Assembly: GCA_026027325.1 (NCBI GenBank)
Contig: JAMSLZ010000013.1
Coordinates: 268,501 to 332,500 of the forward strand
Length of the DNA: 64,000 bases
Origin: Actinomucor elegans
Lineage: Eukaryota > Mucoromycota > Mucoromycetes > Mucorales > Mucoraceae
Reading direction: 5' to 3'
Part shown: piece by piece, positions 3,816 to 63,611 of the stretch
Numbering within the stretch: position 1 is the first letter of the stretch
Layout of the letters: every line of letters starts with the position of its first letter
Made by a program: the position numbers and the translations under genes
Notes under the pieces: model-generated
The model's database searches: none
Told to the model about the DNA's origin: nothing
Seen by the model: only the letters and a program-made list of their open reading frames with translations

Positions 3816-4032
3816 TTTAATAGAGAAAAAATTGTTCACGTGTAGTACCTTATTTGTTTAGTACATTACACAACAACCAATAAAGTAATCGATGCATATT
3901 TTTTATCATAGTTGCATATTCAATCAAAGTTTCTTATGGATATTTTTACATAATTATATGTCGAGTAGTTCTTGAGTTTTGGAATGATTTATCCGAAATC
4001 ATTAAACACGTGAACAGTTTTTTCACCCACTG
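3816..4032 (+). repeat. Right terminal region of Tc1-1
   Basis: The outer end (about 4004-4032) carries CACGTGAACAGTTTTTTC and ends CCCACTG next to a TA. An inverted copy of that motif lies just after the stop codon, at about 3823-3842. The end therefore contains two facing copies of one motif roughly 190 bp apart. Two other Tc1 families in this window show the same layout. Confidence 0.7.
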
Positions 4033-4156
4033 TAAATAGGTTTAGTTTAGACATAGTTATAGGATCTTCATCTTTATATTCATCTTTGTTAATAAAGCAC
4101 AGTCTCAAAAAGTACTCTTTTTAGTCTTCTTTATTATTCACTGTGCAAACACAACA
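4033..4156 (+). repeat. LTR fragment (family 4)
   Basis: This matches, in reverse orientation, the solo LTR at 26112-26420. It starts at the LTR's TATA-like box, where Tc1-1 ends at a TA, and stops at the LTR terminus ACACAACA. It includes AATAAAGC, a likely polyadenylation signal. Tc1-1 therefore appears to have landed in the LTR, and the LTR in turn abuts the left terminal repeat of Tc1-2. The other half of this LTR is absent. Confidence 0.75.
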
Positions 4157-7694: not shown

Positions 7695-7720
7695 ACAATG
7701 TCGAGCCCATAGACTCCACA

Positions 7721-7846
7721 ATGGAAGAAGTACCAATAGAAGTCGAGCTGAGATTAAAGAAGGAAGCAAAACGAAAAAGGAAGTTCAAGCCCAATACCAA
7801 TACAACTCGCAAGAAGACTAAGGTACACTTGACTTACCTTATATGA
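7721..7846 (+). CDS. Short basic ORF in repeat, copy A
   Basis: The 41-residue product begins MEEVPIEVELRLKKEAKRKR and is lysine/arginine rich. The second copy at 8492-8617 keeps the same length, with only a few substitutions and no shift. The function is unknown; it may be the relic of a gag or pol tail. Confidence 0.3.
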   Translation: MEEVPIEVELRLKKEAKRKRKFKPNTNTTRKKTKVHLTYLI

Positions 7847-7870
7847 ACTCAAGCCCGCTGCCAAGATGGT

Positions 7871-8099
7871 TGTTAGAAAATCATACTACTATAGAAATAT
7901 TCCTTTATAAATATCCAAAGCGCATATCCATATATAATTATCCATCCGTCTTAGAATAATATAAATACCATTATAATTTCATTGAATAAAGCTTATCTTC
8001 AGTTTGTATCTTAAAAATACTTATATTGTATCTTTTATAATACTTCTTTAATATACTTCTTGATCACGTGTAGAATAGTCACAGAGAACTGATTCTACA
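7871..8099 (+). repeat. 229-bp LTR-like repeat, copy A
   Basis: It begins TGTTAGAAAATC and ends GATTCTACA. It is nearly identical to 8642-8870. It contains AT-rich promoter-like sequence and GAATAAAGC. Confidence 0.7.
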
Positions 8100-8242
8100 G
8101 ACATCCATTGCAAGATACAGAACTGACAACAATGTCGTAGCGAAAAGAAGGTTCAAGCCAAACCCTCAACCAAGAAGGTCACGTGCTACCTAGCAGGTTC
8201 AAGAAGGTTCCAGAAAGTGATCTTGCTAGAAGGTTTCATATA

Positions 8243-8454
8243 TGAGTATTAATAATCATACTATCCAGAACCTTCCACTACACTTTCCACAACCTTCCAT
8301 GTTCTACTTAGAATATTCTCTTTTAGTATTAGAAAAAGTATAAATATAACTTATGTTCATAAAGTAATAAAGCACTTAACTTCTACTCCTAATTGAATAG
8401 TTAATACTATATCTTTTAGTTATTACTGCAAGTATACGATTAGTTATTATAACA
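8243..8454 (+). repeat. Possible solo LTR between the tandem units
   Basis: The segment has a TATA-like box (AGTATAAATATAAC), an AATAAAGC signal and TG...CA-compatible ends. No target duplication was found and there is no second copy in the window, so this is a weak call. Confidence 0.3.
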
Positions 8455-8491
8455 TCAAGACGACAACAATGTCGAACCCATTGACTCCACA

Positions 8492-8617
8492 ATGGAAGAG
8501 CTACCAATAGAAGTCGAGCTGAGATTAAAGAAGGAAGCAAGACGAAAAAGGAAGTTCAAGCCCAATACCAGTACAACACGCAAGAAGACTAAGGTACACT
8601 TAACTTGCCTTATATGA
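8492..8617 (+). CDS. Short basic ORF in repeat, copy B
   Basis: The product begins MEELPIEVELRLKKEARRKR and is 41 residues. It is the second copy of the ORF at 7721-7846 and sits directly before the LTR-like repeat at 8642. Confidence 0.3.
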   Translation: MEELPIEVELRLKKEARRKRKFKPNTSTTRKKTKVHLTCLI

Positions 8618-8641
8618 ACTCAAGCCCGCTGCCAAGATGAT

Positions 8642-8870
8642 TGTTAGAAAATCATACTACTATAGAAATATTCCTTTATAAATATCCAAAGCGCATATCC
8701 ATATATAATTATCCATCCGTCTTAGAATAATATAAATACCATTATAATTTTATTGAATAAAGCTTATCTTCAGTTTGTATCTTAAAAATACTTATATTGT
8801 ATCTTTTATAATACTTCTTTAATATACTTCTTGATCACGTGTAGAATAGTCACAGAGAACTGATTCTACA
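8642..8870 (+). repeat. 229-bp LTR-like repeat, copy B
   Basis: It has the same length and ends as copy A at 7871-8099. The gypsy-1 solo LTR starts 34 bp further right. Confidence 0.7.
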
Positions 8871-8904
8871 GACATCCATTACAAGATACAGAACTGACAA
8901 CAAA

Positions 8905-9659
8905 TGTAATGCCGTTTAGCGAATATAAGGGTTTTTGATCGGTTTGACCAAATGTGTGCGATAACAAGAATAATATGAATGTGATCAGAGAATTATAACA
9001 GCCTATTAAGCCCAAGAACCAAAAGGCAAAGTTAATATTCTTGATCAAATCCATAGTAATATCGGAATTTGTAACCTACGTTTGATTTCACGTAAAAGAT
9101 CTTCCTTTCTCCAAGAATCAACCACTGAGTAGACTTTCTCCAAAAAATAAAATAAGATAAAACTGATGATGATGTTTATTGAATAAACCTTTTGGGATAT
9201 ATATATGATTTAAAATTTAAGACAAAACTATGTTTCCAAAACAACATATTGACCATAAGCTTGAGAATTTCGATCTTTAGAATTTGACCGACCGAGATTC
9301 CTCCAAAAAAATGTCCAGATATGTCAAGATAAATAAAAGAGTTAATAAATGAAAATATCTAACAAAAACTAAATGATCTAAGAAATAAAATAAAACAATA
9401 TAAAATATAAAATAAAGAAACCAAAGTATTCAGAAAGAGTCGATATAAAGCAAGGTTGAAAGTATAACAGATGAGACCAAAGTAGTAAAAACAGCTATTT
9501 CGAAATCAGTAGCCAATGATATCAGAGATATAGAAAGCTCGTCCGCAACCAATAACCACTAGAAGAAATTTGTACCTCCGTTATCCAATAAAGTTACTAA
9601 CTGGGATTGAAAAAAGAAGCTATTTTCACCAGCCGATATCGCTACTACATCACGTTTCA
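8905..9659 (-). repeat. Solo LTR of gypsy-1
   Basis: This 755-bp copy is nearly identical to the two LTRs of the gypsy-1 element (10075-10826 and 18776-19528) and in the same orientation, with no internal region attached. The flanks read CAAA and CAAT, an imperfect 4-bp duplication. Unlike the other two right-hand ends of this family in the window, no tRNA gene follows it. Confidence 0.85.
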
Positions 9660-10074
9660 CAATGATACGTTTACGGTACTAAAGTGTGAATTCTTGATTT
9701 GAGTTGCTTTACGGTTCTTCTGATACAATTCACCCGAGATTAATATGAATTTATATCGAATATTGATGTATATAAATGTATATTTGTTCTATTAAGTTAA
9801 TGATACACGATTATCTTTTCAAATCCTTCCAAGTATCAATTCCAAACTCGTCAAAACGTCTTATTCAATTTATAATCAAAAGAAAAGCTTGTTTATTTAT
9901 AAGTTAAATTATAATGATATTTAAATTATCAGAGAGTAGAGTGTGTAACTCAGTTATTTCGTAGTGTAAGTAAAATATTAAGGTCGGACCTTAAGGGCCT
10001 AATATAGTAGGTGGTGTGCGTCTAGGGTTCTTTTAGTTTAGAGTGGGGATTATACACCACGCTACGTATCAACA
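9660..10074. other. Spacer between two gypsy-1 LTR copies
   Basis: No gene is seen. A short palindrome AAGGTCGGACCTT lies near 9979-9991. No tRNA-like fold was recognised. Confidence 0.5.
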
Positions 10075-10826
10075 TGTAATGCCGTTTAGCGAATATAAGG
10101 GTTTTTGATCGGTTTGATCAAATGTGTGCGATAACAAGAATAATATGAATGTGATCAGAGAATTATAACAGCCTATTAAGCCCAAGAACCAAAAGGCAAA
10201 GTTAATATTCTTGATCAAATCCATAGTAATATCGGAATTTGTAACCTACGTTTGATTTCACGTAAAAGATCTTCCTTTCTCCAAGAATCAACCACTGAGT
10301 AGACTTTCTCCAAAAAATAAAAATAAAAAACTGATGATGATGTTTATTGAATAAACCTTTTGGGATATATATATGATTTAAAATTTAAGACAAAACTATG
10401 TTTCCAAAACAACATATTGACCATAAGCTTGAGAATTTCGATCTTTAGAATTTGACCGACCGAGATTCCTCCAAAAAAATGTCCAGATATGTCAAGATAA
10501 ATAAAAGAGTTAATAAATGAAAATATCTAACAAAAACTAAATGAACTAAGAAATAAAATAAAACAATATAAAATATAAAATAAAGAAACCAAAGTATTCA
10601 GAAAGAGTCGATATAAAGCAAGGTTGAAAGTATAACAGATGAGACCAAAGTAGTAAAAACAGCTATTCGAAATCAGTAGCCAATGATATCAGAGATATAG
10701 AAAGCTCGTCCGCAACCAATAACCACTAGAAGAAATTTGTACCTCCGTTATCCAATAAAGTTACTAACTGGGATTGAAAAAAGAAGCTATTTTCACCAGC
10801 CGATATCGCTACTACACCACGTTTCA
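10075..10826 (-). repeat. 3' LTR of gypsy-1
   Basis: The 752-bp LTR matches 18776-19528 apart from a handful of differences, including an A-run length change. It lies downstream of the integrase ORF in element orientation. Confidence 0.92.
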
Positions 10827-10883
10827 TACCCCCTCGACCAGGCTAGAAAATACGTTTCTTTTGCTTTCGTCGTCGTTCTAAGT

Positions 10884-12332
10884 TCAGTCTTGATTTTGGC
10901 GATCCAACCAACTTTGAAACTTGTTCATTGCTCTAGTCACCATAACATCGGGCACCATACGATTACTCGTTCTAAACGGAAGTAGAATATCACCATGAAC
11001 AGCGTGTTCTAGTCTTCGTGAATTTGGTCCGACCAAATGATAAGTATTTGTCCTTTCGTTATGTTTTACAACCGTTAGAGGCCCAATATACTTGTCAGCG
11101 AACTTGTTGTTCGGATAATGGTCTTTCATCAAAACTAACTCGTTCACCTTGAAAGATTTTCTTGTCACGACTGTCTTGTCATATATCGCCTTTCTTTTCT
11201 TCTTCTTTTCTTCAGAACTGATCCGTGCTTCTTCTCTAACTTGCACCAACCAATCTTCGATCGCCTTCGCACGACTTCCTATCTCATCTTGTAATTCACC
11301 CAGAACGTAGTCATACCTAGGCGGTACCCATGTACTTGGTGTTCGCATATCATACCCGTATAATAGCATGCTCGGGGTGTAACCGGTAGCTTCGTTCGTC
11401 ATCGTTCTTATCGCCATCAACGCAGCACCGATATAACAATCCCATGGCTTCTTACTTTCCTCGTCTCGCATTATCTTTGCCATCGTTTGCACTAACGTCT
11501 GATTTAACCTTTCCACCTGTCCATTTGCTTGAGGTCTACGACTAGTAGTCATTCGATGCTTGCACTCTAATTTGCTGAGAAACGATTGTAGATATTCCGC
11601 CATATAATTACTTCCACGATCCGTAATCAAAAAATTTGGTACACCAAAGTTAGCCACGATATGATCCATTAGAAACCTTTCGGTCCTTTCGGCAGTGATA
11701 TCGGGAACAGCAATAGCAATTGGCCATTTAGTCAAGTAATCAACAGCGACCATCATGTATTTGTTTCCATCAGGCGTTTCTTCGAGTGGTCCAACACAAT
11801 CAGTACCAACTAAGTAAAAGGGTCTTGAAGGAGTAGGAATAGGTTGACCAGGAGTTACACGTAAGTGAGGAGTTTTTTGGCGAGCTTGGCAGGTTAAGCA
11901 GGTAGGCACTAGCTGTCTTACTTTTTCGTAGAGATTCTTACCAACATACTGGGATTGCACTTTCTTCCAAGTGTTATTTATCCCAAAGTGGCCCTCGCGG
12001 TGAACCCTTAGAACAGCAGCTTCAATTGTCCCTTCATGCAGTAGCTCTCTTGCGAGATATTCTTTGCCGTCGACTTGCGCCTTTATATAAATTTTACCTC
12101 TTTGCGCAATATACTTCTTGGATTTCTTCCTCAACATAGACTTGATCGACTCAGTAGCACCGATAGGATACGTTTTGCGGGTAATATAGTTGAATAGCGC
12201 GATATAATTTGGATAATCCATCTTCACACGAATAGTTTCTTGAGCACGAAAATTTAAAAGATTTGAATAAAAAAGAGGTCTTCTCGATCCAGGTAAGTTG
12301 TTGTATTGTAATGTGTCTTGCACCAGATCCAA
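10884..12332 (-). CDS. gypsy-1 integrase ORF
   Basis: The 482-residue ORF carries an HHCC zinc-binding domain (HREGH and CLTC, about residues 110-150). The DDE core follows: VGTDCVGPL, FLITDRGSN and ANGQVERLNQT, with 35 residues between the last D and E. A C-terminal chromo/SH3-like segment contains KYIGPLTVV. Unusually, integrase is a separate ORF: the RT-RNase H frame stops at 12710 and a 377-nt gap intervenes. The true start is uncertain, since the first 40 residues are not conserved family sequence. It appears intact. Confidence 0.88.
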   Translation of the reverse strand: MDLVQDTLQYNNLPGSRRPLFYSNLLNFRAQETIRVKMDYPNYIALFNYITRKTYPIGATESIKSMLRKKSKKYIAQRGKIYIKAQVDGKEYLARELLHEGTIEAAVLRVHREGHFGINNTWKKVQSQYVGKNLYEKVRQLVPTCLTCQARQKTPHLRVTPGQPIPTPSRPFYLVGTDCVGPLEETPDGNKYMMVAVDYLTKWPIAIAVPDITAERTERFLMDHIVANFGVPNFLITDRGSNYMAEYLQSFLSKLECKHRMTTSRRPQANGQVERLNQTLVQTMAKIMRDEESKKPWDCYIGAALMAIRTMTNEATGYTPSMLLYGYDMRTPSTWVPPRYDYVLGELQDEIGSRAKAIEDWLVQVREEARISSEEKKKKRKAIYDKTVVTRKSFKVNELVLMKDHYPNNKFADKYIGPLTVVKHNERTNTYHLVGPNSRRLEHAVHGDILLPFRTSNRMVPDVMVTRAMNKFQSWLDRQNQD

Positions 12333-12709
12333 AAGTAGACACCAAACGGATATAAATAAAATTTCTTGTAATTGTTATCGCCTACGATAAATCTTGATCG
12401 ACTTGAGTATTCTTGGTCTAACGGTAGTGTTCTTGAGCGCTTGTAAAGATCGATATTCCTAGTAATTCCTTTAATCCATGAGTTTTTCCAACATTGCGAC
12501 GTAGCTATTGGTCCTTTTTGCTTTCGCGGGGAAGGACAAAGTTTGTCATGAAACAAAAACCCACTTTATTTGATATATCAATTTGATATTTTTATACAAC
12601 GATAGTTAAAAATGCATTTCCTTTGGTATTTCTAAACTATTTCTAAACTATTTCTAAACAATATAAATTTTCGAACTATTTAACTACTTCCTAGACAAAA
12701 CTAGAATTT
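12333..12709 (-). other. Gap between RNase H and integrase ORFs
   Basis: This segment holds direct repeats of TTTCTAAACTA (about 12632-12662, with a related copy near 12708). No conserved ORF is recognised. It may hold a splice or internal initiation signal for integrase, or be decayed coding sequence. Confidence 0.4.
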
Positions 12710-15310
12710 CTAAACTAAACGACTCAAACTATCACTTGGCATGTTGTCACCCTTGATCCACTGTATCTTGTAATCGTGAGCCATCAGAGCGGCAGACCAT
12801 CGCATCACCTTAGGGCTTGGCTTAGGGTTTTCAAAAATATACTTCAAAGATGAATGATCCGTTCGCAATATCCACTTCCTTCCCTCTAAATAATGCCTGA
12901 AGTAATTTACACCCCATACAACTGCAAAAGCCTCGACATGACTTGCTGAATAATTAGTCTCAGCACCCCGCAACGTTCTTGAACCATAACCGATAACTGT
13001 TTCTTCATCACTGGATCCATCCGGGCTTTGCGATAAGATTATGCCGAGACCAGCAGAACTACCATCGGTTGTCAGGATTTGGATCTGTGAGCGGTCGGGA
13101 TAAGCCATCAACGGCTCCGTACAAAGCATTTGCTTCAGCGCCGCAAAGGCTTCTTCTTGCTCTTGTCCCCAATTGAACACGACACCCTTTCTCAACAATC
13201 TCGATAACGGTAAACATACCCTGGCTGCATCCTTCAACGCTCTTCTATAAAAATTTGCAGTGGCCAAAAAAGACTTGACACCAGCAACATCCTTGGGTCT
13301 TGGCATATCCAAAAGCTTCTGTACATTACGCTTCGTTGGCCTTATACCTTCAGCATCGATAACATGACCTAAGAATTCGACCGATGTTTTGGCAAACTCA
13401 CATTTCGACCATTTTAGCTTCAAATTGTAATTTTCTAAAATGTTAAAGAGCAACTTCAGATGATCCAAATGAGCTTCCAATGTGGGGCTATACACGCAGA
13501 TATCATCGATAAAAATCTGGAAACAAACTCCAAGATAATCTCCCAGTATTTTAGCCATTTCTTGAGAATAACGCATAGGTCCTCCTTGAACTCCAAACGG
13601 CATTCTTGTACTTTCAAACGTTCCATACTTAGTAATGATTCCAGTATACTTAATGCTGTTTTCTGCCATCTTGATCTGAGTAAAACCACTTGCTGCATCC
13701 ACCACTGAGAAATACCTAGCGCCGTGGAAACCGTCCAATAAATCATGTATGTTTGGTATGGGCCAATCTTCTCTTACGGTTCTTTGATTTAATTGGCGCA
13801 TATCATATACCAAACGTAGTTCCTTAGTTTTTGGCTTTCGAACAAAGAAAATCGGAGAACACCATTCCCCACGACTAGGTCTCAAGACACCCAGATCCAC
13901 CAAGTTCTTCAATTCTTTTCTTAAATATTCGTCCTCTTCCCAAGTAAGCCTGTAAGGCCTCGTCCTAACCGGCGTTACTCCTGGCTTTAGTACGATATCG
14001 TGCTCAGCGCCTTTCAAACATCCCAGACCACCCCATTCGGCAAACTGTAACTTTCGTTCACGCAGAAACACGATCAGAGGATCGGGTAATCCAATTAATT
14101 TGCTCTCAAAAGGGTCTGCAAGTTCTTCCATCGTACCATCTTCATCGCCACTAGACTCCAAAGCTTCATCAAGGTAAGTCTTCAAATCATTTGGTGTAAT
14201 TGACGCATCCAAATTAACAGTACCACATGCAGGAATTTGCTTAAAATCCTGGGTTTCAACTGAAAATACTTCGGCAGCATTGAACAACTTATCGAGATCG
14301 CCACCAAAAACGGATACACAAAAGATCTCTTGACTTGAACTAGAGCTTGTTTCTCTTGTACTTCTCCCTTGCACCGTTATCGAGCTTCCACCATTCTTAA
14401 TTGGTATTTCTATCAGACCTTCTCTTGCATGTACTTTAATATCGTATTGTTTGAGCCATGTCATTCCCAACAATACCACCGGATCGGGCTTCTTGATCGC
14501 CTTAGAGTCATCCTTGATAACAAAATGCTCTGCTCGTAGTTTTCCACCAACTCTGATTGGAACAGCAGCAGTTACTTGACAGATGTTGAATCGTTGCCCT
14601 TTCTTAGTAGTGTCCAATGTAGTAATCGGTATTTGATCCGCACTTGCAACAAGATTAAACCTTTCTGCAACTGACTTACTCATAACGCTCACAGCAGCCC
14701 CTGTATCGATCACCATCTTCACGGGTTGATCGTGAATGGTACCGATTATCTTCAACGGAGACGACGCTTCTAAAACCGCCTTATGATAAGGGTATTCATA
14801 AATCGTGTCATCGTCACTGTCATCGCCATACACGTTCACCTCCTCAGAAATGCCACTAGTACTATCTTCGTCACCATAATCGCTAGGCGAATCGTATTCA
14901 TTTTCGTTAGTAGACGATATAGAACCCCCAGAAACCAAATTGATAGCCACTGGATTTGCAGCATTCTTTCCTTTACTGGGTTTTCGAGCATCCAAGAAAC
15001 GTATACCATCCTTCAATTGCTTTCGGGCATTTTTATCATTTACGATCCAATCTTTAAATGATATTGGCGCAGCAACCATGTCTAGTTTCTCCCATGTATT
15101 TAACTCTCGTTTATCGATCTTTAACCTTTTGGGTGGTGCACGCAATTTCTTCCTTGGTATATCCACCAATGGTCTACTACTACCTGCAACAGCGGCAACA
15201 CTAGAAGCTTCTACCATACCAGAAATATCCATAGGCGTTGCTAACGAAACTCCAACACCAGTGTTTGCTTTCTTGTTGGGTCCATGAGCTACACCAACCG
15301 TAGATTCCAA
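12710..15310 (-). CDS. gypsy-1 pol: protease, RT, RNase H
   Basis: The 866-residue ORF has an acidic N-terminal linker, an aspartic protease motif MVIDTGAAVS at about residue 200 and RT with VYDMRQLNQRTV and IFIDDICVYS. RNase H follows (TTDGSSAGLG, ILRTDHSSLKYI) and the frame ends PSDSLSRLV. The open frame continues upstream to the Harbinger insertion at 15364 and resumes beyond it at 17463-17582, so the original pol began at 17582. No damage other than the insertion is seen. Confidence 0.92.
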   Translation of the reverse strand: MESTVGVAHGPNKKANTGVGVSLATPMDISGMVEASSVAAVAGSSRPLVDIPRKKLRAPPKRLKIDKRELNTWEKLDMVAAPISFKDWIVNDKNARKQLKDGIRFLDARKPSKGKNAANPVAINLVSGGSISSTNENEYDSPSDYGDEDSTSGISEEVNVYGDDSDDDTIYEYPYHKAVLEASSPLKIIGTIHDQPVKMVIDTGAAVSVMSKSVAERFNLVASADQIPITTLDTTKKGQRFNICQVTAAVPIRVGGKLRAEHFVIKDDSKAIKKPDPVVLLGMTWLKQYDIKVHAREGLIEIPIKNGGSSITVQGRSTRETSSSSSQEIFCVSVFGGDLDKLFNAAEVFSVETQDFKQIPACGTVNLDASITPNDLKTYLDEALESSGDEDGTMEELADPFESKLIGLPDPLIVFLRERKLQFAEWGGLGCLKGAEHDIVLKPGVTPVRTRPYRLTWEEDEYLRKELKNLVDLGVLRPSRGEWCSPIFFVRKPKTKELRLVYDMRQLNQRTVREDWPIPNIHDLLDGFHGARYFSVVDAASGFTQIKMAENSIKYTGIITKYGTFESTRMPFGVQGGPMRYSQEMAKILGDYLGVCFQIFIDDICVYSPTLEAHLDHLKLLFNILENYNLKLKWSKCEFAKTSVEFLGHVIDAEGIRPTKRNVQKLLDMPRPKDVAGVKSFLATANFYRRALKDAARVCLPLSRLLRKGVVFNWGQEQEEAFAALKQMLCTEPLMAYPDRSQIQILTTDGSSAGLGIILSQSPDGSSDEETVIGYGSRTLRGAETNYSASHVEAFAVVWGVNYFRHYLEGRKWILRTDHSSLKYIFENPKPSPKVMRWSAALMAHDYKIQWIKGDNMPSDSLSRLV

Positions 15311-15364
15311 CGAATTTGCGTCACGATGATTTCTCTTTGCTACAGTGAAAACTTCTACGCCTAC

Positions 15365-15584
15365 GAGTTACGTTTATATATAAATAATTTTTTTATTAAT
15401 ATCATTATTCTTATTTATTTTAAATAAATTATATTTTTTGGGATTAACGATTTTGTTGAGATTTTAAAACATATTAAAAAAAAACGTTATGATTCATTTT
15501 ATTCTTTATCAACAATTTATTATATTTTTCTGTTACTTTATATCTTGTGTTGTGTTTAATTTTTGTATAGCTAAAACGTATCTC
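15365..15584. repeat. 220-bp terminal direct repeat, left copy
   Basis: It appears identical to 17243-17462. The unit itself starts and ends with short inverted repeats (GAGTTACGTTT / GAGATACGTTT), so each copy looks like a small transposon in its own right. Confidence 0.85.
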
Positions 15585-15650
15585 TAATAATAATTGAAGA
15601 AGAATGAAGTAAAAGTCAGGACTTTAATATTAGATAAATAATGATAGTTA

Positions 15651-17107
15651 TTACATGCTTATATCCATATCTACTTCTAAATCTTTATTATATTCATTTA
15701 ATATAGTTTTATCATCAAAATCATACTCTTTTACCCATGAATTATATAATTTTTTATATCCTTTCCATTTTACAAAATACTCCTTTACACCATTTTTATC
15801 TAATCTATGTGATATTATATATTGAACTTCATAATGCTTTTCTTTATCTATAATATCTTGAGTTAAAGAATTTTTTTCTTCAATAGATATATTTTTACAA
15901 GTTATAATAGAATTTAATAAATCATGTTGATAATCTTTCATTAAATTTATATCTGCCATTTTGTATTCCAACTTTATTAAATCTTCTTTTATATTATTAT
16001 TACTAGGATAATCAAAACTATCTTTTAACCATAAAGAATGTTTATATAATGGATTTAATCCACTTAATTCTGCAAACTTTTTAATATTTAATAATGCACA
16101 AGCTAATTTTAATTGTATATTATATGTTTCTAATTTAGTCACTCTAACATTATTTTTAGCATCGAATCTTTTAAATACTTTTCCTAAACTTGCAAAATAG
16201 GTTTCTATTCTAGATCTAAATCCTCCAATATAATTATTAAAATTTGTCTCTTCATCTGTTAAATCTATTTTTTTCTGCTTTTCAATAGGAAATGTAAAAT
16301 TGTTAATTTTTATATCCAAGTTTCTCAAAGAATACTTTTCAATAGTCTCATTTAGTGTATTTTATATAAACCGTCAAAACATATATTATCATATAAAGTA
16401 AAAAATTTATTAAATTGTACATTGTTTATAAGCATTTTGTCATCATTATTATTTTTACATGGTAAACTATCTGATATAAATACTGCTATATCATTAATAT
16501 CTATTACAAATTGTGTATTCAATCCTGGTTTTTTTAACTTCCAAGAATATAAATCTTTTCTATCAAAATCTACATTTTCATATATTATTTTATTATGGTG
16601 ACCATCCATTAATAAAGTTACATGTTTCATCATTTCTGGATTATTTATATATGAATTCAATAACCTAATTCTTTTATTTGTGCAGTAGTTATATAATATG
16701 TTATTAACCCAATTATTCAATTCATCATACTTTTTGATATATAAATATTTGTAAATTCTGAAAAAATTAGAATGAGGTAAATAAGTCTCCATTTGATTAA
16801 TAGATATCCCATTTAATAAATGTTCTAGTATTATCAAAGCTTTATCAATGTTTCTATATGGCCCTGGTAAATCAAAGTTATTACAAAAATCTGTTAAAAA
16901 TAAAAATGTTGGAATAATCCCAATCTTATCCTCTATATTTTTTTTAACTTTCTCTATATGTTTAATCTCTTGTAATTCTGTTCTGTGGTATTTTTTTTCT
17001 ATAGGTCTATATTCGTTTTCTAAAAATTTCCATTTTGATTTAATCAAGGTTTCATATTCTATCTGTAATTTATTTTGTAATAATATTTTTTCATCTCCAT
17101 TTATCAT
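15651..17107 (-). pseudogene. DDE_Tnp_4-like transposase with chromodomain
   Basis: Two frames form one gene. The upstream part (17107-16352) carries LLMDGHHNKII, AVFISDSLP and YDNICFDGLY. The downstream part (16328-15651) begins in TTG context and carries FRSRIETYFASLGKVF, the likely third acidic residue. It ends in a chromodomain, YEVQYIISHRL and YFVKWKGYKKLYNSW. A one-base indel near 16345 joins them. Harbinger-type transposases fused to a chromodomain are known to me from fungi such as Rhizophagus (recalled, not checked). Only the single frameshift disables it. The N-terminus is uncertain, as the frame is closed by a stop just upstream of 17107. Confidence 0.75.
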
Positions 17108-17242
17108 ATCACAAAATATCTTTCTTGGATCTTTTTTTTATATATCAAAAATTCAATTTTTTTCTTTAAATAATCATCTGAGTTTCAAATTATAGCAGAT
17201 AAAATTGTCTGCAACGCCATTGTGTGTAATAATAATTTCTTA

Positions 17243-17462
17243 GAGTTACGTTTATATATAAATAATTTTTTTATTAATATCATTATTCTTATTTATTTTA
17301 AATAAATTATATTTTTTGGGATTAACGATTTTGTTGAGATTTTAAAACATATTAAAAAAAAACGTTATGATTCATTTTATTCTTTATCAACAATTTATTA
17401 TATTTTTCTGTTACTTTATATCTTGTGTTGTGTTTAATTTTTGTATAGCTAAAACGTATCTC
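17243..17462. repeat. 220-bp terminal direct repeat, right copy
   Basis: It has the same sequence and orientation as 15365-15584. It is directly followed by the TAC target duplication and the interrupted gypsy-1 pol frame. Confidence 0.85.
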
Positions 17463-17582
17463 TACAGCATTATTACTCGCACCTTGTTCTTCCCTTGCTG
17501 TTGTCTCCACGTAATAACTTTCAGATCCTTCACTACTACCACGGTTCACTTGTCCATTTGATAGGACACCAGAGGTGGACAT
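17463..17582 (-). CDS. gypsy-1 pol, 5' segment
   Basis: This short frame starts at ATG 17582, only 2 nt after the gag stop (TAG GA ATG). It runs into the Harbinger insertion and continues in frame at 15364. The spacing suggests termination-reinitiation, or a frameshift, for pol expression. Confidence 0.7.
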
Positions 17583-17584
17583 TC

Positions 17585-18652
17585 CTACTGGCGTCCCAGG
17601 CCTTTTCCCTGGCTTGATTGGGATGGGCCTTGAACTAGCGCAGAACCATTATTAGGATTGACACCGTGATTGTATTGAGGTTCTTGAGGCTGTTGATTTC
17701 CCTGTTGAGGTCGTGAACAATATCTAGCTATGTGTCCCATCTGTCCGCACGCGTAGCATTTAGGTTCACCACCATGATACCGTTGTTCATTCACCCGAAA
17801 GGATGGGTAACGAGTAACATTTGCACTACCAGAATCAGATCCACTATTGAAATGGGTATTCACCGAAAGACGTAGGTCTCTAACACCCTCACAAAGTTCC
17901 TTCATGATCGTGGACAACGATCCCAAAGAAGCCACCGAGTCATCATCCCTTGTAACTACTTGGTTGTTTCGCATAGTACTGGTTTCAACATTGTTTGCTC
18001 TAAGTGGATCACCATTTAGATTCTCGCGTACTTCAGGAATAACTCGGACGTAACGATTTGCAATTTGCGATCCACCATACTTCTTCATGCTAGACTCAAC
18101 CCTCTTAGCCGATGCTGTAATGGCATCCCAATCGGACGAGCTATGCCCAAGTTCGGTAACTCTTTGAGCAATAACAGGTTTTAAAGCTCTCAAAAAGTAC
18201 CTTACTCTAACAGCAGCAGAATTAACACCGAGGACGCCGAATAATTCCACACAACGAAACTTCAACGCATCGACCGACTGTCCTTCACCTTGCTTCAATC
18301 TCTCCAATTCTTCCCACCAAGCATCCACCTGATCATCGCTAGCAAACTGCTTGGTAAACTCGCGTACAAAATCATTGTACGTATGTACATTCTCCTCGAC
18401 GGATTCCCACCATAACCCTGCTGGTCCTACCAGGTATGATGTAGCCACCATAAGAATCTCATCATCAGAGAATTCAAAACCCTTCTTCAATCTTTCGATC
18501 GTTTTCAACCACGCCTTAGGTAAAATACCTTGATCCTCACCACTAAAGCACACTGGCTTTGGCAAAAACTTCTCCATTTTGGCGGTATTATTAGATACCA
18601 CATTCTCCAATACTGGTCTTAACGCAGCAGACGATGCTCGGGATTCAGACAT
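17585..18652 (-). CDS. gypsy-1 gag
   Basis: Taking ATG 18652 (MSESRASSAAL) as start gives about 355 residues. A retrotransposon gag domain contains GPAGLWWESVEENV and VREFTKQFASDDQ, and a zinc knuckle CYACGQMGHIARYC lies near the C-terminus, followed by a Q/N-rich tail. The same frame stays open 91 codons further up, through the leader and into the 5' LTR, to an ATG at 18925. That extension has two hydrophobic stretches and is probably not gag. The stop lies 2 nt before the pol ATG. Confidence 0.88.
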   Translation of the reverse strand: MSESRASSAALRPVLENVVSNNTAKMEKFLPKPVCFSGEDQGILPKAWLKTIERLKKGFEFSDDEILMVATSYLVGPAGLWWESVEENVHTYNDFVREFTKQFASDDQVDAWWEELERLKQGEGQSVDALKFRCVELFGVLGVNSAAVRVRYFLRALKPVIAQRVTELGHSSSDWDAITASAKRVESSMKKYGGSQIANRYVRVIPEVRENLNGDPLRANNVETSTMRNNQVVTRDDDSVASLGSLSTIMKELCEGVRDLRLSVNTHFNSGSDSGSANVTRYPSFRVNEQRYHGGEPKCYACGQMGHIARYCSRPQQGNQQPQEPQYNHGVNPNNGSALVQGPSQSSQGKGLGRQ

Positions 18653-18775
18653 AGTTTCGATAAATAACTTAACTTGATTTCTAGGTAAAACACACACCAA
18701 AAAGAGACAAAAGAACGCAAGGTATAGCAAATTTCCAATATTAACGGTAGTTGTATCACGGATTCCTCTCCAAAA

Positions 18776-19528
18776 TGTAATGCCGTTTAGCGAATATAAG
18801 GGTTTTTGATCGGTTTGATCAAATGTGTGCGATAACAAGAATAATATGAATGTGATCAGAGAATTATAACAGCCTATTAAGCCCAAGAACCAAAAGGCAA
18901 AGTTAATATTCTTGATCAAATCCATAGTAATATCGGAATTTGTAACCTACGTTTGATTTCACGTAAAAGATCTTCCTTTCTCCAAGAATCAACCACTGAG
19001 TAGACTTTCTCCAAAAAATAAAAATAAAAAAACTGATGATGATGTTTATTGAATAAACCTTTTGGGATATATATATGATTTAAAATTTAAGACAAAACTA
19101 TGTTTCCAAAACAACATATTGACCATAAGCTTGAGAATTTCGATCTTTAGAATTTGACCGACCGAGATTCCTCCAAAAAAATGTCCAGATATGTCAAGAT
19201 AAATAAAAGAGTTAATAAATGAAAATATCTAACAAAAACTAAATGAACTAAGAAATAAAATAAAACAATATAAAATATAAAATAAAGAAACCAAAGTATT
19301 CAGAAAGAGTCGATATAAAGCAAGGTTGAAAGTATAACAGATGAGACCAAAGTAGTAAAAACAGCTATTCGAAATCAGTAGCCAATGATATCAGAGATAT
19401 AGAAAGCTCGTCCGCAACCAATAACCACTAGAAGAAATTTGTACCTCCGTTATCCAATAAAGTTACTAACTGGGATTGAAAAAAGAAGCTATTTTCACCA
19501 GCCGATATCACTACTACACCACGTTTCA
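18776..19528 (-). repeat. 5' LTR of gypsy-1
   Basis: The 753-bp LTR is near-identical to 10075-10826. Reading inward on minus, it is followed after 3 nt by TGGAGAGGAATCCG, a candidate primer-binding site whose tRNA I could not identify. The outer edge lies 11 nt upstream of tRNA-Asp. Confidence 0.92.
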
Positions 19529-19539
19529 AACAAAAAAGT

Positions 19540-19611
19540 TCTTCGGTAGTATAGTGGTGAGTATCCCCGCCTGTCACGCGGGAGACCGGGGTTCAATTCC
19601 CCGCCGGAGAG
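19540..19611 (+). tRNA. tRNA-Asp (GTC)
   Basis: The cloverleaf folds: acceptor TCTTCGG pairs with CCGGAGA, the anticodon stem is CCCGC/GCGGG with loop CTGTCAC (anticodon GTC), the T-arm is CGGGG-TTCAATT-CCCCG and the discriminator is G. There is no intron. It is flanked 11 nt upstream by gypsy-1 and 43 nt downstream by an old gypsy-2 LTR. Confidence 0.95.
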
Positions 19612-19654
19612 AATTGTTTTTGCTAGCCATCGAACTGTAATTTCTTTAGGCTGC

Positions 19655-19687
19655 TGTCGTGTGCAGAGCTATATATTTTTAAAGTAG
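19655..19687 (+). repeat. Old gypsy-2 LTR, left fragment
   Basis: This is a diverged start of the gypsy-2 LTR (TGTCGTGTGCAGAG...). It is interrupted by the full gypsy-2 element at 19688 and continues at 24938-24977 (AGATTGAAATAAG...). It starts 43 nt after the tRNA-Asp gene. Confidence 0.75.
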
Positions 19688-22600
19688 TGTCGTGTGCCGA
19701 GATATATGTTTTATAGTCGATTCCAATAAACGTGTACAATAGATTATATATGAGATAAAAGATGCTCTTTATTATTCTAAGATGCAATTGATATTTATAC
19801 TAATTAAAAAGGTTACACATCAAGACCGTGTGTACCTGACACTACCTTCCTCCCAAAAAAAAAGGTATAAAGGCAAAAAAAAAAAAATTTGTTATTTTGC
19901 TCTAGCAACACGAGGAATATACCAAGATTTTTTAGGTTTAGCACCATCATACTGAACAGGATGAAGACGATCAGTGTGAACCCAAGAATTGTACAGTTTT
20001 CCTTCAATTTCTTGAATCTGATAAATGTTGTAATCTAAATTTCTCTTCAACACCACATATGGACCCATCCAATTGAACTCTAAACCTTTCTTTGATTCAT
20101 TTCTAAGCATTACATAATCGCCAATCGCAAAAGTTTGAGCCTTGTTGTTCTTAACAGCAGCATCCCAACGTTCTTTATCCTTCTTGGCTTGTAGGATCAT
20201 TTGTTCTTTGGCTTCAAATCTTTTCTCACGAAGATCACGAATCCGAGCCAGGACATCTTCAGTAACTAACTCTGGATCTTCTTCAGTCAACGGATCCATA
20301 TAGGGACGACGAGAATCACCAGGAAGAACCGGCTCTTGACCATAAACCAAATAGAAGGGGCTATACCCCGTAGTAGCATGTTTCCTTATACGACATGAAA
20401 ACAGTGATGAATCCACATATTCATCCCAAGAATGAACACGACCTTTCACATATTTTATCAACATATGTTTAAATGTCTGATTTAATCTTTCACACTTAGA
20501 ATTGGATCTTGGATGAAAAGCTGACGTAAACATATGTTTGGACCTGATCTTGCGCATATACTGTTTCAATATCTTGCTGAGCAGATTGGCTCCACGATCA
20601 CTCACAATTTCCACAGGGCAACCAAACTTCATTACAATTTCTTCATACAGAAATTTGACGATTTCATCAGCAGTAGCAGACTTGAGAGCGCGAGCAATAG
20701 GCCAATTGGTGGCATAATCCACAGCCATAATAATCCAACGATTGCCATTCACAGTAGTAGGCAATTCACCAATGAAGTCAATATGCCAACGGGCAAAAGG
20801 AACAGGCACCTCTAAAGGCTTCATAGGAGCATGATGTACTTTCTTGTCATTACGAGAATGCAGCTGACATTCAGGACAAGTTTTGAGCCAATAGTTGATA
20901 TCTTTACGCATAGACGGCCACCAAACACGTTGCTTCATTAGATGATATACCGTAAGTTGACCAGAATGACCAAAGCCCCGATGAAAATCTTCAATGAGAT
21001 CAGCACGACGGGAGAAAGTAATAAATTTTAACCTAGACGCTTCTTTACTATTAACAGGATTAGGATTTAGACGCCAGACTACATTATCTATCACTTCGAA
21101 ATTTGATTCCTCCTTCTCCAGTTGAAGGCGCCACTTGTCCGGCCAGTCTTCCTTCTTCTTCTTGAAAAATATAGGCCAATCTTGACACGGATCAGTTAAC
21201 AAAGAAGTATCAGATGGCTGCAGGACCTTATTCAAAATAGTAGTAGATATTTCATATAGAAATTCAGGCTCCATCGACAACACATCCGGCTCACAGTTGG
21301 GACCATCACGACGACTTAACAGATCAGGAATAACATTATCAACACCTTTCTTATAGATTAAGGTGGGCTGATACATTTCAAGATCTTGCATCCATCGAAC
21401 TAAACGAGGAGAAACCTTATTGGACGAGTTGTAGTATTGTAATGGACGATGATCTGTATATACTTCATACACCGATCCTTCAACAAAACAACGCCAAGTT
21501 TTACACGCAAATAGGATAGCCAGCAGTTCCCGTTCTTGAGTAGGATAATTCCTTTCAGCACTCGATAGTTTTTTTGAAATAAATGCTACAGGCTTCCAAT
21601 CATTATTATTATTAGGGTCTTGTTGCAACAACACAGCCCCAATAGCATAATCACTTGCATCACATTCAATACGAAAAGGTTTTTTCATGTCAGGCATAAG
21701 TAACACAGGAGAGGAAGAAATCAAAGCCTTGATAGTGTCAAAAGCCTTTTGACAAGCATCCGACCACATAACTTTTCGATTTTTTGGACCTACACCTTTG
21801 GTTAAATCCGTAATAACCGCCGCAGTATCTGCAAAATTAGGCATATATGTAGAGTAGTATTGACAAAGACCCATAAATTTACGAACATCTTGAACTGTTT
21901 GTGGTACAGGCCACGACAAAATAGCATCCACTTTTTGTTTAGAAGGTTTGGTGCCTTGACCAGCAACAATATCATGACCTAAAAAGGTAATTTCTTTACG
22001 GTTGAACTTGCATTTGGTTCTTGAGACCACCAGACCAGCTTCCTCCAACTTCTTGAACACCATATGCAAATGTTTCTTGTGTAGTTCAATATCATTACCC
22101 TTGGTATAAATGAGACAATCATCAATGTAGCAAATTACAAAATCATCGATGTAATCCTTGAGTACATCATTCATCAAAAACATCCACCTGGATCCAGAAT
22201 TCTTCAAACCCATCGCCATTACAGACCATGAAAATTGACCATATCTAGTATTTATAGCACTTTTGAGAGAATCAGATGGTGACAATCTTTGCTGCCAAAA
22301 ACTACTAGTCAGGTCGATGGAACTCATATAGGTAACACCATGTAATTGTTCTAAACATTCATCAATCCTAGGTAAAGGAACACGCTGTGCAATAGTTTTA
22401 GCATTTAAGGCACGATAGTCACATACCATTCTTAAAGAGCCGTTAGGTTTCTTGACAAACAATACTGGACTACCCCATTCAGATACACAAGGTTCAATAA
22501 AACCTTTACTCAATAATTCATCCAATTGCTTTCTTAATTCTTTCAATTCCAATGGAGACATACGATAAGGAGCTCTGGAAATAGGTTTGGTACCGGGTTC

Positions 22601-24937
22601 CAATTCAATCATATCACCATCAGTTCTACGTAAAGGAGGTAAAGTATCAAGAGAACCTTTGAAAACTCCAGGATACGCTTGAGCAAATTCATTACACCAT
22701 TCTTCATTCTCCTTTTCTTGATCAGACAACACTACAGAATTGACATTGTTCAAATCCAGCAGGCTATGTATCTCCTTCGCTGAGACCAGAAAACACTCCT
22801 CCACTTGTTGCTTCTTCAATAATTTTTCAAATTGCCGTGCAGTAATAACAAAATTACAGTCCTCAACATCATCCTTATGTTCCAAAGTATTCGTAATCAC
22901 ATTATTATGAACATTCACTACATTCTTTGTTATTAATTTTTCTTGGATAGGCTTGATTATCGTAACATCACCCTCCGAAAGTTGAATTGACCAAGAACTA
23001 CAGAACCAATCAGGAGTGGGTTGTACTTGACGCAACCAAGAATTACCCAAAATTAAATCAAATTTTGTATCAAATACATAAGCTTCCATATCATCCTGAT
23101 AATCACCTAGTTGTAATGTAAAAGTAGCAATTGACGATATTTTCGATTGTTGACCATTAGCAGTTTCCACCGCTTGCCCATTTACATTTCTCAGCTGTGA
23201 AACAGAAGACAGCAATTTTGGATTAATGTAATTAGCAGATGCACCTGAATCAATCAACACCGAACACTCAGAACCATTCACCAAAGCACGATACAAAGGA
23301 AGTTTGGTATCAATTTCACCCGCATTTAATACAAACTGAACGTCCTTTTGGATCATACCATCATCAATCAATAGAGGCTCCACATAAGACTTGGAAGTGG
23401 GCAAGACACAATACAAATAAGAGGAAGAATCAATCTTTTTATTTTCAGTATCATCAGCTCCATAATAAATATCTTCATGATCATCTGCTTCAATATAGTT
23501 CAATTGTGAGCGCTTCTCAGATGGACAATCTCTTTGGTAATGTCCAAATCCTTCACAATTGTAGCATCGGATTTCTATACGTGAAGAATTATTAAAACCC
23601 CCACCTCTAGCACCCCGATGCTGATGGCCACCACGACCTCCACGACTACCACGACCATGAAAACCACCACGAGGAGAACCACCACGAGGAGAGCCACCAC
23701 GACTATGAAAACCACCACGGCCACGAAAGCTGCCCCCAGAGCTGAACGACTTCATCATGTTGAACAATTCTCTACGTTCGGCAACTGATAAATCCATAGG
23801 ATCATCCACCTGGTATTCCGATACCGCAGATGAACTACGAAAAACAGGAACAGCATTCAAACGATTGCCCTCATAAGTATGTGCCGCCCGAATGGCGTCA
23901 GACAACACTGGCTCCTCCATAAAGATGCTATCTTTGATGTATATACGAGCATTAGGGTCTTTCAAACCCGCCAAAAACTTGTCAACCGCTTCTTCATCAG
24001 TCATCTTTGGAATGCTGAGTTTAATAGTCATAAACTCTTGCACATATTGTGCGATAGTAGATGATTGTCGAAGGTTGCGTATCTTGTCTCTTGCAACCGA
24101 GATCGAGTTCTCTGGCTTGAAGTATGCTCGTAACTCCGTTTTAAAATGTAGCCAATCTTCAGGAGCATTATTCAATAAACGTAAATTATGATACCAGACC
24201 TTAGCCGCACCCGATAATAAGGTCACACCTAATTTAGCTGTCTTTGTAGATGTAAACTCCTTGAGTGCTGAATAATCATCAATGGACTGGATCCATGATT
24301 CAATGATATGGGGATCCCTGGATCCATCATACTTTCTAGGTTTTTCAATAAACTCGAGTTCATCATCTTTGTTTGATTTAGAAAGGATAACTTCTTTCAA
24401 TATTTCAGCGATCTTCAAAATATCACTATTATCTGTCGTTGAGACCCCTTCTTGTGTAGACATGTTGTTAATAATATTTGTTCCAAAAAACTTCGTTGCA
24501 AATTTGTGAGCTACTGTTTTCCAATGTTCTTCTCTTTGTATAGTTGATTTTAATCTTTCTTCTTCAGTAAACTGACCAGTTGATGTCTTTCTTAATTTGC
24601 TGTTATAATAATCAATGTCGTCTTGATATTTGAGTAGCTTTACTGTCCTTTCTTCTATTTCAAATTGGTTCTTTAATTTCTTGAGTTCTTCTTCAGATAA
24701 GTATTCCATTCACTCAATAATATATATATATAAAAATATATTTTAACTATAATAAACGATCAATTGGTTCTGATGCTACCAAATGTCGTGTGCCGAGATA
24801 TATGTTTTATAGTCGATTCCAATAAACGTGTACAATAGATTATATATGAGATAAAAGATGCTCTTTATTATTCTAAGATGCAATTGATATTTATACTAAT
24901 TAAAAAGGTTACACATCAAGACCGTGTGTACCTGACA
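19688..24937 (-). mobile_element. Ty3/gypsy retrotransposon gypsy-2, intact
   Basis: Two 154-bp LTRs (19688-19841 and 24784-24937) look identical base for base. A 4-bp duplication GTAG flanks them. Inside are one uninterrupted gag-pol ORF, a primer-binding-site candidate TGGTAGCATCAGAACC just inside the 5' LTR (24767-24782 on minus) and a purine tract with GGGAGGAAGG beside the 3' LTR. It is inserted in an older copy of its own LTR, downstream of tRNA-Asp. All parts needed for mobility seem present. Confidence 0.95.
19892..24709 (-). CDS. gypsy-2 gag-pol polyprotein
   Basis: The 1605-residue single ORF has these parts in order: gag domain (about 110-260), an RGG-rich segment (about 330-375), zinc knuckle CYNCEGFGHYQRDC (about 380), and aspartic protease VLIDSGASANY (about 480). 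RT follows with MVCDYRALNAKT and CYIDDCLIYT (about 860), then RNase H (RIECDASDYAIG, VYTDHRPLQYY). Integrase has HRGFGH, CPEC, HIDFIGELP, IVSDRGANL and SKCERLNQTFK, with a 35-residue D-E spacing. A C-terminal domain ends the protein. Gag and pol share one frame, so no frameshift is needed. The RGG stretch may bind RNA. Confidence 0.95.
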   Translation of the reverse strand: MEYLSEEELKKLKNQFEIEERTVKLLKYQDDIDYYNSKLRKTSTGQFTEEERLKSTIQREEHWKTVAHKFATKFFGTNIINNMSTQEGVSTTDNSDILKIAEILKEVILSKSNKDDELEFIEKPRKYDGSRDPHIIESWIQSIDDYSALKEFTSTKTAKLGVTLLSGAAKVWYHNLRLLNNAPEDWLHFKTELRAYFKPENSISVARDKIRNLRQSSTIAQYVQEFMTIKLSIPKMTDEEAVDKFLAGLKDPNARIYIKDSIFMEEPVLSDAIRAAHTYEGNRLNAVPVFRSSSAVSEYQVDDPMDLSVAERRELFNMMKSFSSGGSFRGRGGFHSRGGSPRGGSPRGGFHGRGSRGGRGGHQHRGARGGGFNNSSRIEIRCYNCEGFGHYQRDCPSEKRSQLNYIEADDHEDIYYGADDTENKKIDSSSYLYCVLPTSKSYVEPLLIDDGMIQKDVQFVLNAGEIDTKLPLYRALVNGSECSVLIDSGASANYINPKLLSSVSQLRNVNGQAVETANGQQSKISSIATFTLQLGDYQDDMEAYVFDTKFDLILGNSWLRQVQPTPDWFCSSWSIQLSEGDVTIIKPIQEKLITKNVVNVHNNVITNTLEHKDDVEDCNFVITARQFEKLLKKQQVEECFLVSAKEIHSLLDLNNVNSVVLSDQEKENEEWCNEFAQAYPGVFKGSLDTLPPLRRTDGDMIELEPGTKPISRAPYRMSPLELKELRKQLDELLSKGFIEPCVSEWGSPVLFVKKPNGSLRMVCDYRALNAKTIAQRVPLPRIDECLEQLHGVTYMSSIDLTSSFWQQRLSPSDSLKSAINTRYGQFSWSVMAMGLKNSGSRWMFLMNDVLKDYIDDFVICYIDDCLIYTKGNDIELHKKHLHMVFKKLEEAGLVVSRTKCKFNRKEITFLGHDIVAGQGTKPSKQKVDAILSWPVPQTVQDVRKFMGLCQYYSTYMPNFADTAAVITDLTKGVGPKNRKVMWSDACQKAFDTIKALISSSPVLLMPDMKKPFRIECDASDYAIGAVLLQQDPNNNNDWKPVAFISKKLSSAERNYPTQERELLAILFACKTWRCFVEGSVYEVYTDHRPLQYYNSSNKVSPRLVRWMQDLEMYQPTLIYKKGVDNVIPDLLSRRDGPNCEPDVLSMEPEFLYEISTTILNKVLQPSDTSLLTDPCQDWPIFFKKKKEDWPDKWRLQLEKEESNFEVIDNVVWRLNPNPVNSKEASRLKFITFSRRADLIEDFHRGFGHSGQLTVYHLMKQRVWWPSMRKDINYWLKTCPECQLHSRNDKKVHHAPMKPLEVPVPFARWHIDFIGELPTTVNGNRWIIMAVDYATNWPIARALKSATADEIVKFLYEEIVMKFGCPVEIVSDRGANLLSKILKQYMRKIRSKHMFTSAFHPRSNSKCERLNQTFKHMLIKYVKGRVHSWDEYVDSSLFSCRIRKHATTGYSPFYLVYGQEPVLPGDSRRPYMDPLTEEDPELVTEDVLARIRDLREKRFEAKEQMILQAKKDKERWDAAVKNNKAQTFAIGDYVMLRNESKKGLEFNWMGPYVVLKRNLDYNIYQIQEIEGKLYNSWVHTDRLHPVQYDGAKPKKSWYIPRVARAK

Positions 24938-25599
24938 GTAGATTGAAATAAGTTTATACAAAAGATTATATACAGTTTTTTTTTTTGTTTTTTTTTTGTA
25001 TTAAATGTAATTTATTGATCTTAAAGTGGTATTACAAAGCTAAATTACAAATTACTAATCTAATGTTGTGCTAGTAGACTCATCAGGAGTTCTACTATCT
25101 AAGAACGTGGTGATATAACAAGGCTGTTATCTGTCTTGAAGGAATTGAGGACCCAAGCTGAGGACCAAGTATCATCATGAATAAGACATCGCCAATGTGC
25201 AGCCCATAGGGTACAGAAGATCGAACCCAAAATGGAAAGCACATCCACATCAAGCGGCTTGCAATCTAGACTACATAGAGTAATGATACAGAATTAAATT
25301 ATAATAATATTATAACCTAATTTATATACTTTTAATTTTTAATATAACTATAGAAATAACCTATTGTTTTAAATACCTTAATATATTATATACTGTATAA
25401 AACATTTTATATATCGTTTTATTTTTAATTAATATTATTTTTGTAAATAATTATAAATTTATAAATAGCATTAATTATATTTTAATAATTTTATATGTAT
25501 GAGTGAAATTTTTATTTTCAAAACAAATTTCATAATTTTTTTTCTTTAAAAAATCAATTAAAAAAGCACGTAGTAAGTTATTTTTGTAACTTACAACTA
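24938..25599. other. Flank of gypsy-2 and AT-rich spacer
   Basis: The first 40 bp continue the old gypsy-2 LTR split by the element. The remainder is AT-rich, with poly-T at about 24977-24999 and no supported gene. Confidence 0.5.
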
Positions 25600-54862: not shown

Positions 54863-54933
54863 TGCTGGTAGCAGGAATCGAACCTGCGTCGACGCGGCCA
54901 CAACACGATGTACTGCCACTATACTATACCAGC
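54863..54933 (-). tRNA. tRNA-His (GTG)
   Basis: On minus the acceptor GCTGGTA pairs with TACCAGC and the discriminator is A. The anticodon loop is TTGTGGC (GTG). The T-arm is GCAGG-TTCGATT-CCTGC. The outermost anticodon-stem pair is a T-T mismatch; the rest fits eukaryotic tRNA-His. Confidence 0.9.
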
Positions 54934-63608: not shown

Positions 63609-63611
63609 TTA

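Follow-up and report, generated by a model that had tools for sequence, protein, structure and literature searches.

Two retrotransposon families flank tRNA genes on opposite sides

The DNA analysed here is a stretch of 64,000 nucleotides (nt) from the fungus Actinomucor elegans (contig JAMSLZ010000013.1, positions 268,501 to 332,500), hereafter called the window, in which the genes for tRNA-Asp(GTC) and tRNA-Trp(CCA) stand between long terminal repeats (LTRs) of two Ty3/gypsy families, gypsy-1 upstream and gypsy-2 downstream. The tRNA-Asp gene lies on the plus strand at 19540-19611 (the ARAGORN call, 19539-19612, was trimmed by hand by one base at each end according to acceptor pairing). Upstream of it, a full-length gypsy-1 occupies 10075-19528 on the minus strand (LTRs 10075-10826 and 18776-19528; target site duplication (TSD) AACA), its minus-strand open reading frames (ORFs) placing the 5' LTR toward the tRNA, from which it is separated by an 11-nt spacer read from the sequence (19529-19539). 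Downstream, after 43 nt (19612-19654), an old minus-strand gypsy-2 LTR begins (19655-19687) and resumes from 24942 to about 24980, past a nested full-length gypsy-2 on the same strand (19688-24937; LTRs 19688-19841 and 24784-24937; single ORF 19892-24709; TSD GTAG) whose two LTRs are identical across 154 nt. At tRNA-Trp (63668-63740, plus strand, ARAGORN), the upstream gypsy-1 LTR is reduced to its terminal 46 nt (63611-63656), again 11 nt before the gene, and beside this remnant lies a terminus of the CACTG type, TTGCAGTG (63601-63608), at 59 nt from the tRNA by coordinates. Past the gene, part of an old gypsy-2-like LTR on the minus strand (63784-63839) follows after 43 nt and is succeeded by a newer solo gypsy-2 LTR in the opposite orientation (63840-63993, plus strand, TSD TTTT). 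Both loci thus show an old gypsy-2 LTR broken by a younger gypsy-2, a full element at tRNA-Asp and a solo LTR at tRNA-Trp. By coordinates, the spacings of 11 nt and 43 nt that the original prediction had given for the two genes are exact. Since the spacer sequences of the two loci are unrelated and the tRNA species differ, a segmental duplication is ruled out as their origin.

In both families protease, reverse transcriptase, RNase H and integrase follow one another between the LTRs in the order typical of Ty3/gypsy elements, in gypsy-1 spread over separate ORFs; no chromodomain was found in either at E <= 0.001. The best match of the gypsy-1 integrase is the Ty3 structure 7q5b (E 2e-15), and the gypsy-2 integrase matches 7q5b at E 5e-21 and a foamy virus integrase slightly better (2e-22). 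The gypsy-1 copy of the window also contains an insertion (15365-17464) with 222-nt direct repeats and a 251-amino-acid ORF that has no Pfam match.

gypsy-2 lies downstream of tRNA genes throughout the genome

The window's own genome (36.5 Mb) was examined. Of 63 Rfam-scored tRNA genes, 7 lie on C19, a mitochondrial-like contig of 58.8 kb, leaving 56 nuclear genes chosen by Rfam score alone; with 28 further genes reached via LTR loci, the nuclear set comprised 84 genes (91 minus the 7 on C19). A gypsy-2-like LTR was present within 300 nt downstream of 29 of the 56 ranked genes and within 500 nt upstream of none (Fisher p = 2.6e-11), which excludes chance as the source of this sidedness. Across all 84 genes, the numbers were 56 downstream and 0 upstream. 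The search with the gypsy-2 LTR yielded 54 matches, its counts being lower bounds because 40 of 127 candidates were scored, and when these were sorted by hand into 32 insertion groups, the LTR in 30 groups lay 15-160 nt from a tRNA gene, always on the 3' side of that gene.

Among the innermost downstream copies with a true terminus (n = 53), the gap ranged from 15 to 160 nt with a median of 69 nt, and 27 copies pointed one way and 26 the other. A fixed downstream distance of 43 nt, the second half of the predicted double spacing, is ruled out by these gaps: genome-wide the downstream side is fixed and the distance is not, so that the two 43-nt values at tRNA-Asp and tRNA-Trp are a coincidence. 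A T-run starts 0-6 nt past the tRNA in 82 of the 84 genes, placing the gypsy-2 insertions beyond the terminator. TSDs of 4 nt, highly variable in their bases, border all eight full-length gypsy-2 copies (paired by eye) and 19 of the 34 remaining complete LTRs, and recent, near-identical copies obey the same downstream rule. In addition, a gypsy-2 LTR (94% identity over 109 nt) lies 10 nt beyond the end of the Rfam match at one of three U6 genes.

An external B box as downstream guide was considered and set aside: the strict pattern GWTCRANNC had no match within 250 nt downstream of the 84 tRNA genes. The 5S rRNA gene, a candidate for a second RNA polymerase III (Pol III) test, gave a single match below the cut-off and was not used.

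The window also contains a Tc1/mariner-type transposon (3354-5651; HTH_Tnp_Tc3_2 and DDE_3 domains, 141-nt inverted repeats), the repeat of which occurs at at least 40 places in the genome with 90-100% identity. In a control with this Tc1-like terminal inverted repeat, none of the 40 listed places lay less than 200 nt from the 63 Rfam-scored tRNA genes; for the best 40 gypsy-2 places the number was 7. No gypsy or CACTG elements were carried by the four tRNA genes scanned on C19 (the other three were duplicates without scanned sequence).

Several LTR families share a narrow upstream position

Genome-wide, gypsy-1 gave 19 matches, 15 with and 4 without an LTR terminus. At 8 tRNA genes the terminus lies 8-11 nt upstream, always in the orientation that makes the element antisense to its tRNA; this is a narrow Ty3-like window at the predicted position of the expected Pol III start. 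A ninth terminus is found some 9 nt from a 5' tRNA-Ala portion. In five cases another LTR starts 3-5 nt beyond the terminus; three of these LTRs match d4, V (68%) or x, while the other two were recognized by eye. The remaining terminus runs into the element's own interior. All eight tRNA genes with an upstream gypsy-1 end also have a gypsy-2 downstream, compared with 29/56 in the ranked sample.

gypsy-1 shares this upstream spot with several other LTR families. In a search with 12 LTR ends, restricted to the tRNA-proximal ends, known or recurring LTR-like ends were located 8-13 nt upstream of 33 of the 84 nuclear tRNA genes, a count that is circular for the eight ends (W, Z, V, Q, R, P, N and M) taken from the tRNA upstream regions themselves. 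These eight are supported by being found again, either at a further, different tRNA or within a stack; R, M and N have one tRNA match each, with the second place identified by eye. Both ends are defined only for LTR1, d4, y and x. The gap was 8-13 nt in 33 of 34 matches, and the 11-nt spacing of the window loci reflects a real rule of 8-13 nt.

The predicted division of two families between opposite sides of tRNA genes is supported, wherever the genome was examined, by the gypsy-1 ends and by the 29/56 downstream against 0/56 upstream gypsy-2 LTRs. Of the two outcomes named beforehand as refuting it, neither was seen: enrichment is strong and a segmental duplication is absent. The idea of one upstream family was right for gypsy-1 and too narrow otherwise, as several LTR families share its spot and a CACTG-ended transposon adds a third position.

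An ordered stack of elements upstream of tRNA-Asp

Outward from tRNA-Asp, the full-length gypsy-1 is followed by a solo LTR of family x (TGATACG..CGTATCA; 9663-10071; TSD ACAA, read across the nested gypsy-1), a solo gypsy-1 LTR (8905-9659; TSD CAAA, read across the nested LTR x), and solo LTRs of families d4 (8470-8899), y (8133-8465) and again d4 (7699-8128), each with TSD ACAA. Beyond these, an LTR-like unit V (TGATATTG..ACATGCA; 6604-7694), which has no clean TSD, ends 4 nt before the outer d4 LTR, and further out a Z'-type LTR-like terminus, present with its final 46 nt (6552-6597), adjoins the end of a CACTG-ended transposon of family B (6388-6551). Neighbours in the stack are separated by 3-5 nt (6 nt in front of V), and at every layer between the outer d4 LTR and the gene these bases come from the same A-rich target. 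Junctions in which two LTRs are separated by 4 nt were seen again at other loci. On the simplest reading, every new copy entered on the tRNA side of the one before it, so that age drops toward the gene.

The order CACTG end, Z', V in the window (6388-7694) is shared with a tRNA-Leu locus on contig C25 (L013). Because the spacers of the two loci differ, we suspect that these layers are perhaps independent insertions reflecting the same sequence of family activity.

A CACTG-ended transposon 55-59 nt upstream

The third position is held by a DNA transposon whose termini, CACTGCAA and TTGCAGTG, are terminal repeats of the CACTA/CACTG kind. Within 500 nt upstream of the 84 nuclear tRNA genes, TGCAGTG occurs 13 times, 12 of them at 55-59 nt. 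In the window, a transposon end of family A (54991-55160) lies 57 nt upstream of tRNA-His(GTG) (54863-54933, minus strand, ARAGORN), as calculated from the coordinates. A Transposase_21 ORF (Pfam; tnp2, CACTA/EnSpm type) at 58367-60544 on the plus strand sits between two CACTG ends whose flanks share no TSD. The label CACTA-like derives from the CACTG ends together with this ORF, whose putative membership in the CACTG-ended family is judged from its position only. At individual sites, d4 pieces around C3:84916-89041 overlap by three positions, and the flank overlaps at V and Z' agree with a 3-base-pair (bp) duplication at these sites.

This transposon also accounts for the truncated LTRs. At tRNA-Trp, tRNA-Gln, tRNA-Leu on C25 and tRNA-Asp on C11, just the terminal 46-49 nt of a gypsy-1 LTR are left, with TGCAGTG adjoining or near, and the remnant at tRNA-Trp is only 46 nt long because the CACTG transposon inserts 55-59 nt upstream. 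A shared LTR subfamily as the source of the 46-nt gypsy-1 remnants was considered and dropped, the transposon cutting several unrelated LTR ends at a near-equal distance.

Twenty stretches reached from transposon or LTR remnants were inspected. Predicting from the transposon ends where a tRNA gene should lie, we found five intact tRNAs 55-57 nt beyond (L115, L116, L123, L128 and L129) and, by eye, the 5' part of a tRNA at the predicted place in two more (L124 and L127). Four stretches (L117, L118, L119 and L133) showed by eye an LTR-like end of 45-50 nt followed by other sequence, and four (L122, L125, L126 and L131) resembled the far side of an insertion, again by eye; L122 and L126 have flanks that correspond to V and Z' sites still intact, at 54-56 nt from the tRNA, and for L125 and L131 only a nearby CACGTG was visible. 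In L120 and L121 two transposon ends stand face to face, L132 is an incomplete stretch and L134 is a d4 remnant followed by a second d4 LTR.

Of 32 occurrences of the hexamer CACGTG in the 300 nt upstream of the 84 tRNA genes, 29 start between -80 and -51, and the 300 nt downstream contain a single one; the hexamer is likely a conserved upstream tRNA promoter element. Some LTR-like ends (W and P, by eye) carry it at the same distance. The 5' parts of tRNA-Ala (L036, L124 and L139) and tRNA-Val (L127 and L141) end in the A-box/D-arm and continue into repeated AT-rich sequence, which is nearly alike among the Ala loci and a different one at the Val loci; these interrupted genes are perhaps tRNA-headed short interspersed nuclear elements or mark an element that inserts inside tRNA genes.

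Pol III genes as probable landing platforms

Taken together, tRNA genes, and U6 genes in at least one case, very probably serve as landing platforms for elements that read different parts of the Pol III complex. Guidance by the Pol III machinery, as the original prediction had proposed, is the best inference and is backed by the gypsy-2 LTR behind a U6 gene. The positions and sides, the orientation of gypsy-1, the TSDs and the nesting order at tRNA-Asp are read directly from the loci; the Pol III factors named here as tethers are candidates. According to this model, gypsy-1 and several further LTR families would make a staggered cut of 4 nt and integrate close to where Pol III is expected to start, 8-13 nt ahead of the mature tRNA. 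An integrase tethered by TFIIIB in the fashion of Ty3 appears to be the likeliest upstream mechanism, being in agreement with both the upstream position and the 4-nt cut. Fresh copies would land between the prior LTR and the tRNA and so build up an ordered stack with the oldest layer outermost. Past the terminator, gypsy-2 would integrate 15-160 nt downstream in either orientation, probably via TFIIIC or the terminating Pol III, and the CACTG-ended, CACTA-like transposon would land 55-59 nt upstream, cutting resident LTRs about 46 nt from their tRNA-proximal end.

Several observations weigh against this interpretation. Two gypsy-2 groups (C1:99540 and C8:97977) have no tRNA in the adjoining flank, and Rfam detected no Pol III gene at either; two of the three U6 genes have no gypsy-2 LTR. 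A d4 LTR lies reversed at 11 nt from a tRNA (C14_74884), and a V end lies reversed at 73 nt. The thirteenth TGCAGTG, at a tRNA-Gln, is 74 nt away, with extra bases before the gypsy-1 remnant, and in L130 about 285 nt, as judged by eye, separate a CACTG end from the terminus of LTR y. The 56-gene sample is the top of a score list, hence non-random, and some of its genes form near-duplicate pairs. Except for gypsy-1, the orientation tally is biased by the restriction to tRNA-proximal ends and is uninformative on the number of reversed LTRs. Finally, the surviving copies have been filtered by selection.

This last point is the core of an alternative in which insertion is broad and copies persist only in tolerant tRNA flanks. 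The copies visible today are indeed survivors, and tRNA flanks are probably tolerant, but selection of this kind predicts wide spacing on both sides of the gene, whereas LTR-end gaps fall within 8-13 nt in all but one of 34 matches, CACTG gaps within 55-59 nt in all but one of 13, and gypsy-2 is absent upstream of all 84 genes; near-identical, recent gypsy-2 copies follow the rule as well. We consider selection without targeting very unlikely. The TSDs in the tRNA-Asp stack, which are always ACAA, CAAA or AACA, would suit integrases that recognize a short A-rich motif beside tRNA genes rather than a protein complex. Between tRNA genes, however, the bases at the insertion point change while the distance stays nearly constant, gypsy-2 TSDs vary widely, and the LTR ends that the CACTG element cuts at near-equal distance are of several unrelated kinds, so that recognition of the DNA sequence itself is highly improbable.

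It is also conceivable that tRNA genes spread together with their flanking LTRs, a single insertion event being copied many times, and a few pairs with alike flanks do exist (C1_976880/C1_982048, C21_1780350/C21_1780873 and C24_1186938/C24_1189193). Against such duplication or capture, which we regard as extremely unlikely, the main families recur at different tRNA species with different spacers, and gypsy-2 copies each have their own TSD.

Comparison with known systems

Upstream targeting by Ty3/gypsy elements is already established in fungi (PMC5911963, PMC4600332): the beta LTR of Tca8 is found 6-30 bp upstream of the tRNA coding sequence, Tyl3/Ylt1/Tyl6 lie some 5 bp ahead of the start, Ty3 integrase is tethered at TFIIIB (PMC5911963), and Tj1 inserts 5-11 bp upstream of tRNA genes with a 5-bp TSD (PMC4600332). 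The gypsy-1 element resembles Ty3 of Saccharomyces cerevisiae and its yeast relatives in lying, as a Ty3/gypsy element, a few bases upstream of tRNA genes. It differs from Tj1, which is inserted in the direction of the gene, by its antisense orientation, and the TSDs of the A. elegans elements are 4 nt long instead of 5 bp. Ty3 is able to insert in both orientations, whereas gypsy-1 was found in one only; moreover, in A. elegans several families stack and a second family occupies the other side.

A close parallel to gypsy-2 is Skipper-2, an LTR element of dictyostelids that likewise occupies a downstream window at tRNA genes (7-133, 26-97 and 54-136 bp, one range for each of three species; PMC5006619). 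As a chromovirus, Skipper-2 carries a chromodomain, though a diverged one; gypsy-2 has none at the threshold given above and was for this reason not filed as Skipper-2. Its host, moreover, is a fungus and not a dictyostelid. In Dictyostelium, DGLT-A sits about 15 bp upstream of tRNA genes, TRE5 40-54 bp upstream and TRE3 40-150 bp downstream (PMC5006619, PMC5911963), and TRE3 can use an external B box (PMC5911963), which the strict pattern did not reveal downstream of the A. elegans tRNA genes. The TRE5 zone is near the -57 position of the CACTG element (PMC5911963), which in A. elegans is held by a DNA transposon and not by an L1-type element. Dada DNA transposons aim at small RNA genes including tRNA genes (PMC3706591, PMC8869645); they are said to insert inside these genes, whereas the CACTG element lies outside at a near-fixed distance. 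In Rhizopus oryzae, Ty3/gypsy LTR elements frequently co-localise with tRNA genes (PMC2699053), an account whose accessible part contains nothing on side, spacing, orientation, stacking or a DNA-transposon zone.

A 2018 review describes downstream retrotransposon targeting as confined to dictyostelid genomes (PMC5911963). Among the papers listed from the open-licence PMC literature, we found no matching report of downstream LTR targeting in fungi, of CACTA or other DNA transposons at fixed spacing upstream of tRNA genes, or, in this context, for Mucor, Mucoromycota, Rhizopus or nested stacks. It is reasonably likely that the Pol III complex acts as a ruler, with the CACTA-like transposon at -55 to -59, LTR stacks at -8 to -13 and the chromodomain-less gypsy-2 at +15 to +160 and at U6, and these would be the first LTR element in a fungus aimed downstream of Pol III genes and the first CACTA element at a fixed distance from them.

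As a clear downstream case in a fungus, gypsy-2 suggests that targeting of this side would have more than one origin and that a chromodomain would be unnecessary for it. If a DNA transposon keeps a near-fixed distance to Pol III genes, such transposases, too, would be capable of being tethered. The stacks, which store the order of arrival, may provide a relative clock for element families that is independent of sequence divergence.

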